From assembly GCA_021789095.1 (NCBI GenBank), contig JAJYJX010000122.1, positions 1 through 7,396 of the forward strand: a stretch of DNA of 7,396 nt, given 5' to 3'. A program made the position numbers and the translations under genes. Positions within the stretch are counted from its first letter, which is position 1; each line of letters begins with the position of its first letter. This document shows, one piece after another, positions 3,097-7,298 of the stretch. The notes under the pieces are model-generated. The model made no database searches. It worked only from the letters and a program-made list of their open reading frames with translations, and had not been told where the DNA came from. This stretch comes from a bacterium (GTDB lineage: Bacteria; JAMCPX01).

Positions 3097-4194
3097 ATGG
3101 TGTCATTTGAATTAAGCGAAGAACAAGCGTTGTTACGGGATACGTGCAGGGATTTTGCGTTAAAGGTGATGCGCAAGCAGGACAGGCAGTCGGACGAATC
3201 CGGTGAGATACCAAAGGAGATCGTACAGCAGGGGCACGAACTCGGTTTAACGACGGGTTACCTGCCGGAAGCTTACGGAGGTGCTGGAAGCGAGCTTTCG
3301 GCTGTTAACAGTGTTATTGTGCTTGAAGAACTTGCTTACGGCAACCTTTCCATGACCCTTCATATACTGGCCCCTTCATTATTCAACATACCGGTAATGC
3401 TTTACGGCGGTGAAGAACAGAAAAAAAAGTATTTCGGCATGAACAAGCCTGATAAATTCCAGGGCTTCACAGCGGCGCTTACAGAACCTGCCGTAAGATT
3501 TGATATTGAAGCCTTGAAAACAACAGCATATGACGCAGGAGATGATTTTGCGCTTAACGGGGAGAAGGCCTTTGTTGCTATAGCGGACTCGTCGCTTGCA
3601 ACGCTTGTGTTTGCGAAGAAAGGCTCTGGTGAAGGACTTGCAGGCATCGACGGTTATATACTCCCTGCAGGCGCATTCGCAATAAAGGAAAGGGAAAAGA
3701 ACCAGGGACTCAGGGCATTGAAACAATTCACCATTTCCCTGGACGGTTCAAGGGTTCCTAAAAATGAAGTCCTGAAGCTGTCGGGCGGATTCGCAACACT
3801 TCTTGCAAGGGCAAGGACAGCATCAACAGCCCTTACAACAGGCGTTTGCAAGGCTGCATACGAATACGCACTGAACTATTCAAAGGAGCGTGTTGCGTTC
3901 GGGGAACCAATCGCTTCAAGACAGTCGATTGCGTTTACCCTGGCAGAGATGGCAACAGAGGTCGATGCAATGAGGCTTATGGCATGGAAATCCGCATGGA
4001 TGCTTGATAAGGGTATGGACGCATATAAGGAAGCAGCGATGGGGAAGAGGTATGCGGCAGATGCAGCCATGTTTATAACAAGAAACGCCACCCAGATCCT
4101 CGGCGGACACGGTTTCGTAAGAGAACACCCGGTAGAGATGTGGTACAGGGATGCACGGTCGTTTGCTGTTTCAGAATTCATGGCAATTGTATAA
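3097..4194 (+). CDS. Acyl-CoA dehydrogenase family protein, FAD-ADP-side subunit with truncated C-terminus
   Basis: 365 residues, slightly shorter than the usual 380 or so. AAAGGAGG 4 bases before the ATG fixes the start. The N-terminal helical domain has FELSEEQALLRD and YLPEAYGGAG at 55-64. In the middle domain the canonical LTEPGAGSD reads LTEPAVRFD (128-136), so the GSD flavin/substrate segment is lost, and the usual ITNG-type strand reads FVAIADSS. The C-terminal domain keeps the residues that reach into the neighbouring subunit to bind the ADP part of FAD: R265 and F268 in ERVAFG, Q333 and G337 in QILGGHGF. It ends RDARSFAVSEFMAIV; E360 aligns with the catalytic Glu, but the following Gly-Thr-x-Gln is missing and translation stops five residues later. 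Best read as one subunit of a heteromer with the next gene. The SD of that gene overlaps this stop codon. Confidence 0.9.
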   Translation: MVSFELSEEQALLRDTCRDFALKVMRKQDRQSDESGEIPKEIVQQGHELGLTTGYLPEAYGGAGSELSAVNSVIVLEELAYGNLSMTLHILAPSLFNIPVMLYGGEEQKKKYFGMNKPDKFQGFTAALTEPAVRFDIEALKTTAYDAGDDFALNGEKAFVAIADSSLATLVFAKKGSGEGLAGIDGYILPAGAFAIKEREKNQGLRALKQFTISLDGSRVPKNEVLKLSGGFATLLARARTASTALTTGVCKAAYEYALNYSKERVAFGEPIASRQSIAFTLAEMATEVDAMRLMAWKSAWMLDKGMDAYKEAAMGKRYAADAAMFITRNATQILGGHGFVREHPVEMWYRDARSFAVSEFMAIV

Positions 4195-4204
4195 GGAGGC
4201 TTAC

Positions 4205-5452
4205 ATGATAGATTTTGAACTTACACCTATAATGAAGATGGCAATGGAGTTTACGCACAACTACGCAAGGGACGTGATGCGGCCTATTGCAAGGAAATAT
4301 GATGAAGAAGAACATAAAGAACCAACGGAGTTTATACAGAAAACACACGAGATGTTTTCATCCATGGGGTTCAGTTTCTCCACGGCAAGGGCAGGCGAGG
4401 AAAAAGAAGAAAAAGAGGAAAAAGCAGAGTCCTCAGAGAAGCACAGCAGGCCGAAGATGGAGATGAACCTGCTCGGGGCCATTTCGGTCGAGGAACTTGC
4501 ATGGGGATGCCCGGGACTTACGCTGAGAATACCCGGACCCGGACTCGGAGGCGCTGCGATTATGGCTGCCGGAACACCGGAACAGAAAAAGAGGTTTATG
4601 AAGGTCCTGGTGGGTTCCAAGCCAAGCTACGGTGCCATGGCACTTACAGAGCCCGGCTTCGGTTCTGATGCATCAGCAGTAGCCACGACCGCGGTAAAGG
4701 ACGGTGATTACTTTATCCTGAACGGCACCAAGATCTTTGTTACCGGCGGAGACATGGCAGACCTTTATGTCGTATGGGCAACACTGGGCAAGGACCTGGG
4801 CAGGGCAGGTATTAAGGCTTTTGTTGTTGAGAAAGGTACGCCCGGACTGAAGATGGCAAGGCTTGAACATAAACTCGGCATAAGGGCTTCAGATACTGCA
4901 GAGGTTGTACTTGAGGACTGCCGCGTACATAAGGACAACCTTCTCGGCGGAGAAAAGAAGGAGGAAAAGGGATTCAAGGGTGCAATGCAGACCTTTGACG
5001 CTACAAGACCCATGGTGGCCGCAATGGCGATCGGCATAGCCAGGGCCGCTTATGATTATATATACGATGATTTCGTGACAAAGGGCGGACTGGAGATAAA
5101 TTACGGCAAGGCCCTTCACAAGAGAGGATATCTTGAAACCGTTTTTGAGGACATGGAAGCTAAGATCAATGCATCAAGGCTGCTTACATGGAAGGCTGCG
5201 TGGATGCTTGACCACAATCTTCCGAACCTCAAGGAGGCGTCCATGGCAAAGGCAAAGGCGGGCACGGTTGTTGATGAGATTACCCAGAAGGCGATAGAGC
5301 TTTACGGTCCTGAGGGTTATTCCAGAAGGCACCTTCTCGAGAAATGGATGAGGGATGCAAAAGTGTACGATGTGTTTGAAGGTACGGGCCAGATACAGAG
5401 GCTTGTTGTTGCAAGGGCGATCCTGGATTATACAAGGAAGGAATTAAAATAG
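4205..5452 (+). CDS. Acyl-CoA dehydrogenase family protein, catalytic-side subunit with charged insert
   Basis: 415 residues. The start is ATG 4205, set by AAGGAGG 4193-4199; the frame is open 18 codons further upstream inside the previous gene, but without a ribosome binding site. This subunit holds the catalytic half: ALTEPGFGSD 146-155 and IFVTGG 177-182 around the flavin, LGIRASDTAEVVLEDCRV 224-241, and VFEGTGQIQRL with the likely base E392 plus T394 and Q396, matching E376-G-T378-x-Q380 of medium-chain acyl-CoA dehydrogenase. It lacks the ADP-side residues: Glu297 stands where Arg is expected (LEINYGK), and AIELYGPEGY has E365 and P369 where Gln and Gly belong. The usual VPEEYGG segment is replaced by a Glu/Lys-rich stretch at 65-79. 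It would oxidise an acyl-CoA at the alpha-beta carbons, passing electrons to ETF, whose genes are not in the window. The substrate cannot be assigned. Confidence 0.92.
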   Translation: MIDFELTPIMKMAMEFTHNYARDVMRPIARKYDEEEHKEPTEFIQKTHEMFSSMGFSFSTARAGEEKEEKEEKAESSEKHSRPKMEMNLLGAISVEELAWGCPGLTLRIPGPGLGGAAIMAAGTPEQKKRFMKVLVGSKPSYGAMALTEPGFGSDASAVATTAVKDGDYFILNGTKIFVTGGDMADLYVVWATLGKDLGRAGIKAFVVEKGTPGLKMARLEHKLGIRASDTAEVVLEDCRVHKDNLLGGEKKEEKGFKGAMQTFDATRPMVAAMAIGIARAAYDYIYDDFVTKGGLEINYGKALHKRGYLETVFEDMEAKINASRLLTWKAAWMLDHNLPNLKEASMAKAKAGTVVDEITQKAIELYGPEGYSRRHLLEKWMRDAKVYDVFEGTGQIQRLVVARAILDYTRKELK

Positions 5453-5461
5453 GAGGTATCT

Positions 5462-5716
5462 ATGTCTTCGACATACAATGACTGGGACAAGCTCGATGAG
5501 CTGTCAAAAGACCTTGAAAGGGCAAGGGTCTCATTGACCGAGGAGTTCGATGCGATAGACTGGTACCAGCAGCGCATATCGGCAACAAAGGACCCGCAGC
5601 TCAAGCGCATACTTGAACACAACCGGGACGAGGAAAAAGAGCACGCCGCCATGCTGATGGAATGGATACGCAAGCACGACCCTGCGCAGGAAAAGGCATT
5701 TCAAGAACACGATTAA
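5462..5716 (+). CDS. EncFtn-family ferritin-like protein without a visible encapsulin-targeting tail
   Basis: 84 residues, helix-turn-helix, start ATG 5462 with AGGAGG 5451-5456 overlapping the previous stop. It matches the pattern of encapsulated ferritin (EncFtn, known from Rhodospirillum rubrum): SLTEEFDAIDWYQQR at 24-38 and HNRDEEKEHAAMLMEWIRK at 53-71. By alignment with the R. rubrum protein, the ferroxidase residues E32, E62 and H65 are E28, E58 and H61 here; W38 and Y39 are W34 and Y35; entry-site E31 and E34 are E27 and D30. EncFtn assembles as a ring of dimers in which the iron site forms only at the subunit interface. The protein ends RKHDPAQEKAFQEHD, with no recognisable targeting peptide, and no encapsulin gene is nearby. 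It probably oxidises or buffers iron. Its co-transcription with acyl-CoA dehydrogenases is unusual. Confidence 0.85.
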   Translation: MSSTYNDWDKLDELSKDLERARVSLTEEFDAIDWYQQRISATKDPQLKRILEHNRDEEKEHAAMLMEWIRKHDPAQEKAFQEHD

Positions 5717-5733
5717 CCACAAAAAATGCCTTT
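5692..5733 (+). repeat. 10-bp inverted repeat spanning the end of the ferritin-like gene
   Basis: AAAGGCATTT at 5692-5701, inside the last codons of the ferritin-like gene, is the exact reverse complement of AAATGCCTTT at 5724-5733, with 22 bases between, including the stop codon. The right arm shares its last two bases with the foot of the terminator stem, so the full stems cannot both form. It could be a second 3'-end hairpin; on the minus strand AAAGGCATTTTTT also resembles part of a terminator. Confidence 0.5.
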
Positions 5734-5782
5734 GCAAAATAAAGAGGTTCGAGCAATGAGCGAACTTCCTTATTGCAATTTT
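5732..5782 (+). terminator. Strong, probably bidirectional terminator between convergent operons
   Basis: The arms 5732-5751 and 5761-5778 pair over about 16-17 base pairs (TTGCAA with TTGCAA at the base, GAGGTTCG with CGAACTTC at the top, one G-U pair, one mismatch and a two-base bulge) around the 9-base loop 5752-5760. TTTT follows at 5779-5782 on the plus strand. On the minus strand the same stem is followed after five bases by TTTTTT (plus-strand A-run 5721-5726). It ends the dehydrogenase-ferritin operon and very likely also the minus-strand operon that finishes at 5838. Confidence 0.75.
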
Positions 5783-5837
5783 CTGGTTAACCCGGGATTT
5801 TTTCCCCCGCCTATGACATGTAAACTATAATGCCCGT

Positions 5838-7298
5838 CTATCTTACCGTTATAAACTGGGCAAGGACCGTTTCCAGATGCCTGGTATCAAGCGGTATATC
5901 CTTCAGTTCCGCCCTGTTGGCAATATGACCGAAGGTAGTTTCCAGAAAGATCTTAAAGTTATGTATGGTTTTTCTGAGATCAATAAACTTAAATCTGTTC
6001 AGGAGATCATCCTCTTTGTAAACGCTGATCCTGTCGAAAAACTTCTCGAACTCCTCGTTGTCGCTGTACCTGACCAGAGAAAAACTTATGTCCTGGAAAT
6101 AATAGATGTATTCCTTTATCAGGTTGAACAGGACCTGGACCGTGAAATTGTTTATCGCTCCGCTGTCATTCGTATTCTGTTCAAAGAACTCAAGAACATT
6201 CTTGAAGAGCCAGATATCCTCTCTCAATCTTAACGACTGTTCTATTCTGGATACAAAATCGGGAAAGATCTCGTTTCCCTTCAAAGAAGGATTAAATTTA
6301 TGGGCAACGAGTATGATTGACTGCTGTATGAAATTGGCAAGGATACCCTTGGCAGAGTCAATAGCTGCCCTCAGCTTCAGCAGGTTCCCTATCTCTATGG
6401 CGTCCTTTAATATCTGGCCGAAAACCTTCCTGATTTCTATACCTAACTGGAACGACAGGGAGTCTATAGTTGCAATGATACCGTTTTCATACCTCTGGGT
6501 TGACTTCTGCTTCAGAAACTCGTCATCGAGGAACTTGGTAAGTATTTTGGCCTCCGCATGAATGAGGGTGAACAGCAGGAGCGATCCCCTGAGTTCTTCG
6601 GTGTCTTCTGATTCGTTGTTTATGTGCCTGAGGTATAGTACAAGCCTGAACAGGGAAAGGAACACAATGGATGTTTTCAGCCTGAGGTTTTCATTATTTA
6701 TATTGCCGACAATTACCCTTATAGGGGAATCGTAGATCTTGTCGTATCTCTCAAGGAACGGTTCAAGCTTAAGAGGGTTGAAATACTTGTTCATGGAAAT
6801 TTCCCTGCTGGTTAACTGCCCGAGGTTGCTGTACATGCTGTAGGGCACCCTCTTGGCGTTCGCTACGGTTTCATATATGGCTCCAAGGTTCAGAAATGTT
6901 ATGTAGAGCAAGTACAGGCTGTCCCTTGGAGATGATTGCGTCATGTATAACTCGATGATCCTGTCTCTGGCATAATCAGCCAGAAGACGATTTTCGACAT
7001 AAGCCTGAAAGTAGAACACGTTTGCCGATTGATCCACCAGCAGGAGCCTGATAATTGAAACGATTCGCTTTGCCGTAGTGGCCAGTATTTTTAATTCGTT
7101 GTAAAAGTTTTTTGATATGATCTGTTCCTTGTTGGATACAGGAAGGTTGTCTATATTGAAAAACCTTTCGGTAGCACGTAAAAGCATCTCAAGCTCGAAC
7201 AGGAGCCGGTCTTTCCCTTCGACGTTCAGCGTTTCGAGCCACTTATCACGCTCTATCGATAGAACTTTTTTCATCATGTAATCTTTTTTAGTATCCAT
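5838..7298 (-). CDS. Hypothetical protein, 486 residues, cysteine-free and probably all alpha-helical
   Basis: I do not recognise this protein. It runs from ATG 7296-7298 to the stop at 5838. The start overlaps the end of gpsA by 11 bases; only a weak GACGAG lies ahead, so translation probably depends on ribosomes finishing gpsA. ATGs at codons 8 and 9 have no better binding site. The sequence is rich in Leu, Ile, Phe, Lys, Glu and Asn, has no cysteine and only two tryptophans (W20, W363), and consists of repeated amphipathic stretches suggesting many helices. The most hydrophobic stretch is SIVFLSLFRLVLYL at 210-223, interrupted by Arg and too polar to be a confident membrane span. There is no signal peptide, nucleotide-binding loop, metal-binding or other catalytic motif. 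An intracellular scaffold or lipid-related protein is possible given the gpsA coupling, but that is only a guess from position. Confidence 0.8.
   Translation of the reverse strand: MDTKKDYMMKKVLSIERDKWLETLNVEGKDRLLFELEMLLRATERFFNIDNLPVSNKEQIISKNFYNELKILATTAKRIVSIIRLLLVDQSANVFYFQAYVENRLLADYARDRIIELYMTQSSPRDSLYLLYITFLNLGAIYETVANAKRVPYSMYSNLGQLTSREISMNKYFNPLKLEPFLERYDKIYDSPIRVIVGNINNENLRLKTSIVFLSLFRLVLYLRHINNESEDTEELRGSLLLFTLIHAEAKILTKFLDDEFLKQKSTQRYENGIIATIDSLSFQLGIEIRKVFGQILKDAIEIGNLLKLRAAIDSAKGILANFIQQSIILVAHKFNPSLKGNEIFPDFVSRIEQSLRLREDIWLFKNVLEFFEQNTNDSGAINNFTVQVLFNLIKEYIYYFQDISFSLVRYSDNEEFEKFFDRISVYKEDDLLNRFKFIDLRKTIHNFKIFLETTFGHIANRAELKDIPLDTRHLETVLAQFITVR

Follow-up and report, generated by a model that had tools for sequence, protein, structure and literature searches.

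The window, the whole 7,396-nucleotide stretch of bacterial DNA analysed here, contains two adjacent genes of the acyl-CoA dehydrogenase (ACAD) family, each preceded by a good ribosome-binding site, and a third, small gene directly downstream. The features of the locus are given below, with the equivalent MCAD residues for the main motifs.

3097..4194, + strand: gene 1, predicted small (ADP-side) subunit, FadE24-like, 365 aa (Pfam ACAD N, M and C domains, A1 alignment, AF2 model)
3499..3501, + strand: F135 of protein 1, a bulky side chain where GSD has the Ser that contacts the flavin (20/22 homologues have Phe)
3889..3900, + strand: R265-x-x-F268 of protein 1, ADP-side motif equivalent to MCAD R281/F284 (22/22 homologues)
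4093..4107, + strand: Q333-I-L-G-G337 of protein 1, ADP-side motif equivalent to MCAD Q349...G353 (22/22 homologues)
4174..4194, + strand: C-terminus of protein 1, E360 kept at the Glu column and followed by FMAIV-stop, without Gly-Thr-x-Gln
4205..5452, + strand: gene 2, predicted large (flavin/catalytic) subunit, FadE23-like, 415 aa (Pfam, A2 alignment, AF2 model)
4382..4456, + strand: charged, low-confidence insert of protein 2, residues 60-84, within its N-terminal domain (pLDDT <50; alignment)
4643..4669, + strand: LTEPGFGSD flavin loop of protein 2, residues 147-155 (GSD, 153-155, in 27/27)
5093..5095, + strand: E297 of protein 2 at the ADP-side Arg position (alignment)
5297..5311, + strand: E365-L-Y-G-P369 of protein 2, replacing Gln-x3-Gly (Glu/Asp at the Gln column in 27/27, Gly at the final column in 0/27)
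5378..5392, + strand: E392-G-T394-G-Q396 of protein 2, predicted catalytic base (MCAD E376 type) and flavin-binding Thr/Gln (27/27)
5462..5716, + strand: EncFtn-like ferritin-fold protein, 84 aa, gene 3 of the operon in the window's family (PF22277, E 6e-32)

The stop codon of gene 1 and the ATG at 4205 taken as the start of gene 2 are separated by 10 nt. A start at 4151 was set aside as a mechanical call of the longer reading frame. The order small then large, in one transcription unit, was found in all genomes of the family and also in Tsukamurella and Rhodococcus. Upstream of the pair, on the opposite strand, lie genes for an SDR and a B12-binding radical SAM protein, and a 486-aa reading frame at window positions 5838-7298 (- strand) gave no Pfam or NCBIfam match. 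Among these neighbours (radical SAM, SDR, EncFtn-like and unknown) only the EncFtn-like gene, which begins 9 nt after the large-subunit gene, recurs across the family. It directly follows the large gene in 7/7 family genomes searched (L144-L150) and is the sole copy in each; an encapsulin shell gene (PF04454) was not found in the six of these seven genomes that were searched for one, and among 14 control genomes EncFtn-like and encapsulin genes were present in the same three. No conserved catabolic neighbours of the ACAD pair were seen in the family, where it forms a stand-alone two- or three-gene unit.

Residues were assigned by aligning proteins 1 and 2 to 1ukw and 1jqi. Protein 1 reads RFD at the GSD position of the homomers, carries R265, F268, Q333 and the glycines G336-G337 on the ADP side, and ends ...SEFMAIV. 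A truncation or frameshift artefact was considered for this short C-terminus and rejected, since the ending is conserved in 8/8 aligned family copies and the large gene begins just after it. Protein 2 contains the intact flavin loop and the C-terminal Glu-Gly-Thr-x-Gln motif, and has E297, Y300, E365 and P369 at ADP-side positions. The insert at residues 60-84 is located where homomers carry a P-x-x-Y-G-G loop and varies in length and sequence among large homologues.

The first-pass annotation had described these two proteins as half-enzymes with reciprocal motif losses. Indeed, the alignment to 1ukw and 1jqi returned the very residues it had named in both proteins. Its statement that protein 1 keeps only the ADP side was correct for the loss of GSD and of Gly-Thr-x-Gln but overlooked E360, a Glu retained in the catalytic-base column. 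A Glu was present at this column in 15/22 small homologues, the subsequent Gly-Thr being gone. With this Glu in place, the small subunit's pocket might itself retain some residual function or have taken on another.

The pattern was followed in 22 small and 27 large homologues, together with 16 control proteins. The homologues came from four genera of the single family to which the window belongs, from other phylum-level groups, and from Actinobacteria and Acinetobacter, with shallow sampling of Desulfobacterota and other large phyla. In the small homologues the ADP-side Arg, Phe, Gln and Gly were each present in 22/22, and neither the Ser of GSD (0/22; Phe in 20) nor the Thr of Glu-Gly-Thr (0/22) was found. 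The large homologues all retained GSD and the catalytic-side Glu, Thr and Gln (27/27 each), and none had the ADP-side Gln (0/27, replaced throughout by Glu or Asp) or the last Gly (0/27, Pro in 19). There were thus zero exceptions at the diagnostic columns, and the columns invariant in the A1 alignment complement those invariant in A2, each set forming one half of a single FAD site. Homomeric paralogues sampled for comparison, seven of them from the window's own genome, had both residue sets or nearly so. The reciprocal split in proteins 1 and 2 exceeds chance.

One further violator among the sampled paralogues proved to be half of a second, very divergent and unrelated reciprocal ACAD pair in the window's genome (G000:C97; L184:3512-4750 and 4751-6061). 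Its first protein keeps the Arg and Gln-x-x-Gly-Gly and is without GSD and EGT; its second keeps GSD and EGTNQ and has His/Glu/Asp at the ADP-side positions. Relatives of the small protein of this pair were found in G002 and G005 (56-58%) and in G047 (36%).

AF2 models gave a complete ACAD fold for each protein. MCAD was the best structural match of both the small subunit (pLDDT 85, Z 45.3) and the large subunit (pLDDT 79, Z 48.5). Entries 4x28 and 6wy8 did not appear among the 50 structural matches listed for the models, which was not taken as absence.

Co-occurrence was examined with two profiles, of which A2 separated the large family (at least 600 bits) from other ACADs (at most 351) and A1 separated full-length small matches (at least 405 bits) from others (at most 371). 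Two copies fell below full length in the A1 search, one cut by a contig end (G022) and one split in two (G063). When A1 and A2 were both run on 12 genomes, the two subunits turned up together in 11 and neither was present in the remaining one (G062), and every small gene seen was immediately followed by a large gene. Three genomes of one family (G031, G060 and G061) have one small gene and two or three large genes each, the extra large genes (L116, L190, L191 and L192) having no adjoining small gene. No remnant of a small gene was detected beside these orphans, where the sole tblastn match of the small subunits was the large gene. One orphan, G031b (locus L116), was aligned and likewise has no ADP side, so it too would need a partner, and the partner ratio in these three genomes is not necessarily 1:1.

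In two other genomes the small gene is interrupted and the large gene is intact. In G004:C360 (L012) an in-frame TGA lies within the small gene, and in G063:C748 the small gene is split over two frames; the interruptions reflect either assembly error or decay.

The extra large genes, and the longer branches of the small clade compared with the large clade in the phylogenies described below, would be expected if catalysis rested with the large protein alone, as a homomer whose cofactor binding had changed, and if the small protein were a paralogue in decay or one turned to regulation. This reading is improbable, however, because the residues invariant in the small subunit are exactly those of the ADP side, the small gene is kept adjoining the large gene across several phyla, and even the large-only copy G031b is without its own ADP side. 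The sequence comparisons instead lend strong support to an obligate heteromer, which would probably be an α2β2 assembly holding two FAD. The conserved losses and the co-occurrence of the two genes likewise favour the earlier proposal of such a heteromer with shared half-sites outside Actinobacteria.

To place the pair among known heteromeric ACADs, trees were built with the real chains of 4x28 (ChsE4-ChsE5) and 6wy8 (IpdE1-IpdE2) and six further steroid-type alpha and six beta sequences from plasmid records. FadE28/FadE29 sequences served as bait for the 4x28/6wy8 chains only, and the trees took database sequences alone. The small and large subunits formed sister clades (99/97 and 100/98 in two trees, 100/98 in the denser), and their subtrees broadly matched. 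The heteromer pair was nested inside MCAD/1ukw-type homomers (100/99, denser tree), and the steroid alpha and beta subunits fell in two other, separate clades.

Tblastn of the large protein against plasmid records gave full-length matches of 45-47% in Nocardia, Tsukamurella, Rhodococcus and Acinetobacter. The Tsukamurella record reads prfB ... hisN - ACAD (458 aa) - ACAD (413 aa), and that of Rhodococcus sp. DN22 has hisN upstream of the ACAD pair, separated from it by two genes; the hisN synteny rests on these two annotated records, those of Acinetobacter and Nocardia being almost unannotated. The actinobacterial pairs show the identical reciprocal motif pattern, and the window proteins share clades with the actinobacterial pair beside hisN (small 100/99, large 100/100). 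We take M. tuberculosis impC (Rv3137) to be the hisN homologue. The gene order there is impC (Rv3137) - pflA - fadE24 - fadE23 - fadB4 (PMC2834668). The shared clades, and the synteny of the proxies matching this order, identify the window pair as FadE24-FadE23-type, an orthology drawn through the Tsukamurella, Nocardia and Rhodococcus pairs as proxies for M. tuberculosis Rv3139/Rv3140. By this sequence-based assignment the closest known system is mycobacterial FadE24-FadE23 (Rv3139-Rv3140) and not ChsE4-ChsE5.

The first-pass annotation had likened the pair to the alpha2beta2 FadE (ChsE) complexes and suggested a bulky or ring-containing acyl-CoA as substrate. The half-site logic is indeed the same as in 4x28 and 6wy8, which would also be expected of a ChsE/IpdE-type steroid or polycyclic acyl-CoA dehydrogenase transferred into a non-actinobacterial genome. 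The kinship was not supported, however, and such a transfer is very improbable. In the denser tree, with 8 alpha and 8 beta steroid rows, monophyly of all heteromers was rejected (AU p 0.0023), as were a clade of large subunits with steroid alpha (AU p 0.0033) and one of small subunits with steroid beta (AU p 0.033). The helix-G column holds Thr in 27/27 large proteins versus Glu in ChsE4 and IpdE1, so that the position of the catalytic Glu, in the C-terminal loop or in helix G, is an independent character that agrees with a separate origin. None of the sampled ACADs of the genome was closest to ChsE4/ChsE5 or IpdE1/IpdE2, and a steroid-catabolism neighbourhood (MaoC, lipid-transfer protein and the like) was not found around the window pair; together with the lack of conserved catabolic neighbours in the family, this leaves the suggested substrate without support. 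In the first, sparser tree, with two alpha and two beta steroid rows, monophyly of all heteromers was not rejected (p 0.075). Given this result and the long branches, an origin independent of ChsE/IpdE is likely, not proven.

Among the steroid-type sequences themselves, a reading frame of about 760 aa on Tsukamurella plasmid 6 (L155:3870-6149) joins beta and alpha subunits. This is a putative natural single-chain version of the steroid-type heteromer.

That two independent homomeric ACADs lie adjacent by accident, each with a complete predicted fold, is scarcely credible, since one half of the FAD site is missing from every homologue of protein 1, and the other half from every homologue of protein 2, and the two are co-inherited sister clades spaced by 10 nt.

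The products of the two genes thus very probably combine into a single FadE24-FadE23-type ACAD, an obligate heteromer whose most likely form is an alpha2beta2 tetramer carrying two FAD. Half-site chemistry, the 2:2 ratio of subunits and the count of two FAD in each tetramer would follow from structural knowledge of ACADs and from the precedent of ChsE4-ChsE5. The large subunit would bind the isoalloxazine ring and the acyl-CoA; E392 would take the alpha-proton, and the beta-hydrogen would pass to FAD N5. The small subunit, with Phe135 for the Ser of GSD and no Gly-Thr, would have no working flavin pocket of its own, and its R265, F268 and Q333-x3-G337 would grip the FAD of its partner at the pyrophosphate/ADP end. 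The electron acceptor is presumably ETF. According to one report, FadE23-FadE24 is a SigE-controlled complex that catalyses a reaction other than the dehydrogenation of acyl-CoA (PMC11980559), which makes the reaction less certain than the architecture. Both fadE23 and fadE24 are retained in M. leprae (PMC4626898).

These data carry a heteromeric architecture mostly associated with steroid catabolism into bacterial lineages without an apparent steroid role, and point to two heteromer origins, not one family. Because we know of no agreed substrate for mycobacterial FadE24-FadE23, its widely conserved non-actinobacterial orthologues, some followed by an EncFtn-like gene, provide new material for the question of function.

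Among known systems, PimC/PimD (TIGR03204/TIGR03203) resembles the pair in being encoded by two genes, whose products are named as large and small ACAD subunits, but the window proteins match these models weakly, far under the curated cut-offs. The MCAD/SCAD homotetramers (3mdd, 1ukw, 1jqi) share the fold and the catalytic Glu position, and the heteromer clade is nested among them; they differ in having both halves of the FAD site in a single chain, whereas each window protein has one. ChsE4-ChsE5 (FadE26-FadE27, PDB 4x28) is an alpha2beta2 enzyme in which one subunit supplies flavin site and base and the other the ADP side, as PMC11153573 describes. It and IpdE1-IpdE2 (PDB 6wy8) share with the window pair the half-site logic, here inferred from the genes, but belong to other ACAD lineages, have a helix-G Glu and an FGGG-type C-terminal loop, and act on steroid substrates from within steroid clusters. 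On balance we favour a FadE24-FadE23 lineage that arose by duplication of an MCAD-type homomer with a C-terminal Glu, reached a ChsE/IpdE-like division of labour independently and spread well beyond Actinobacteria, one family's single small subunit perhaps serving two or three catalytic subunits. The FadE24-FadE23 type agrees with the window pair in its small-large order, the reciprocal pattern of the hisN-adjacent pairs, the C-terminal Glu base and membership of the same two clades. The actinobacterial proteins of this type differ in sequence (~46% identity over the large subunit), in their longer small subunit (458 aa in Tsukamurella versus 365 aa in the window) and in genomic context, and in the window's family the EncFtn-like gene follows the pair.
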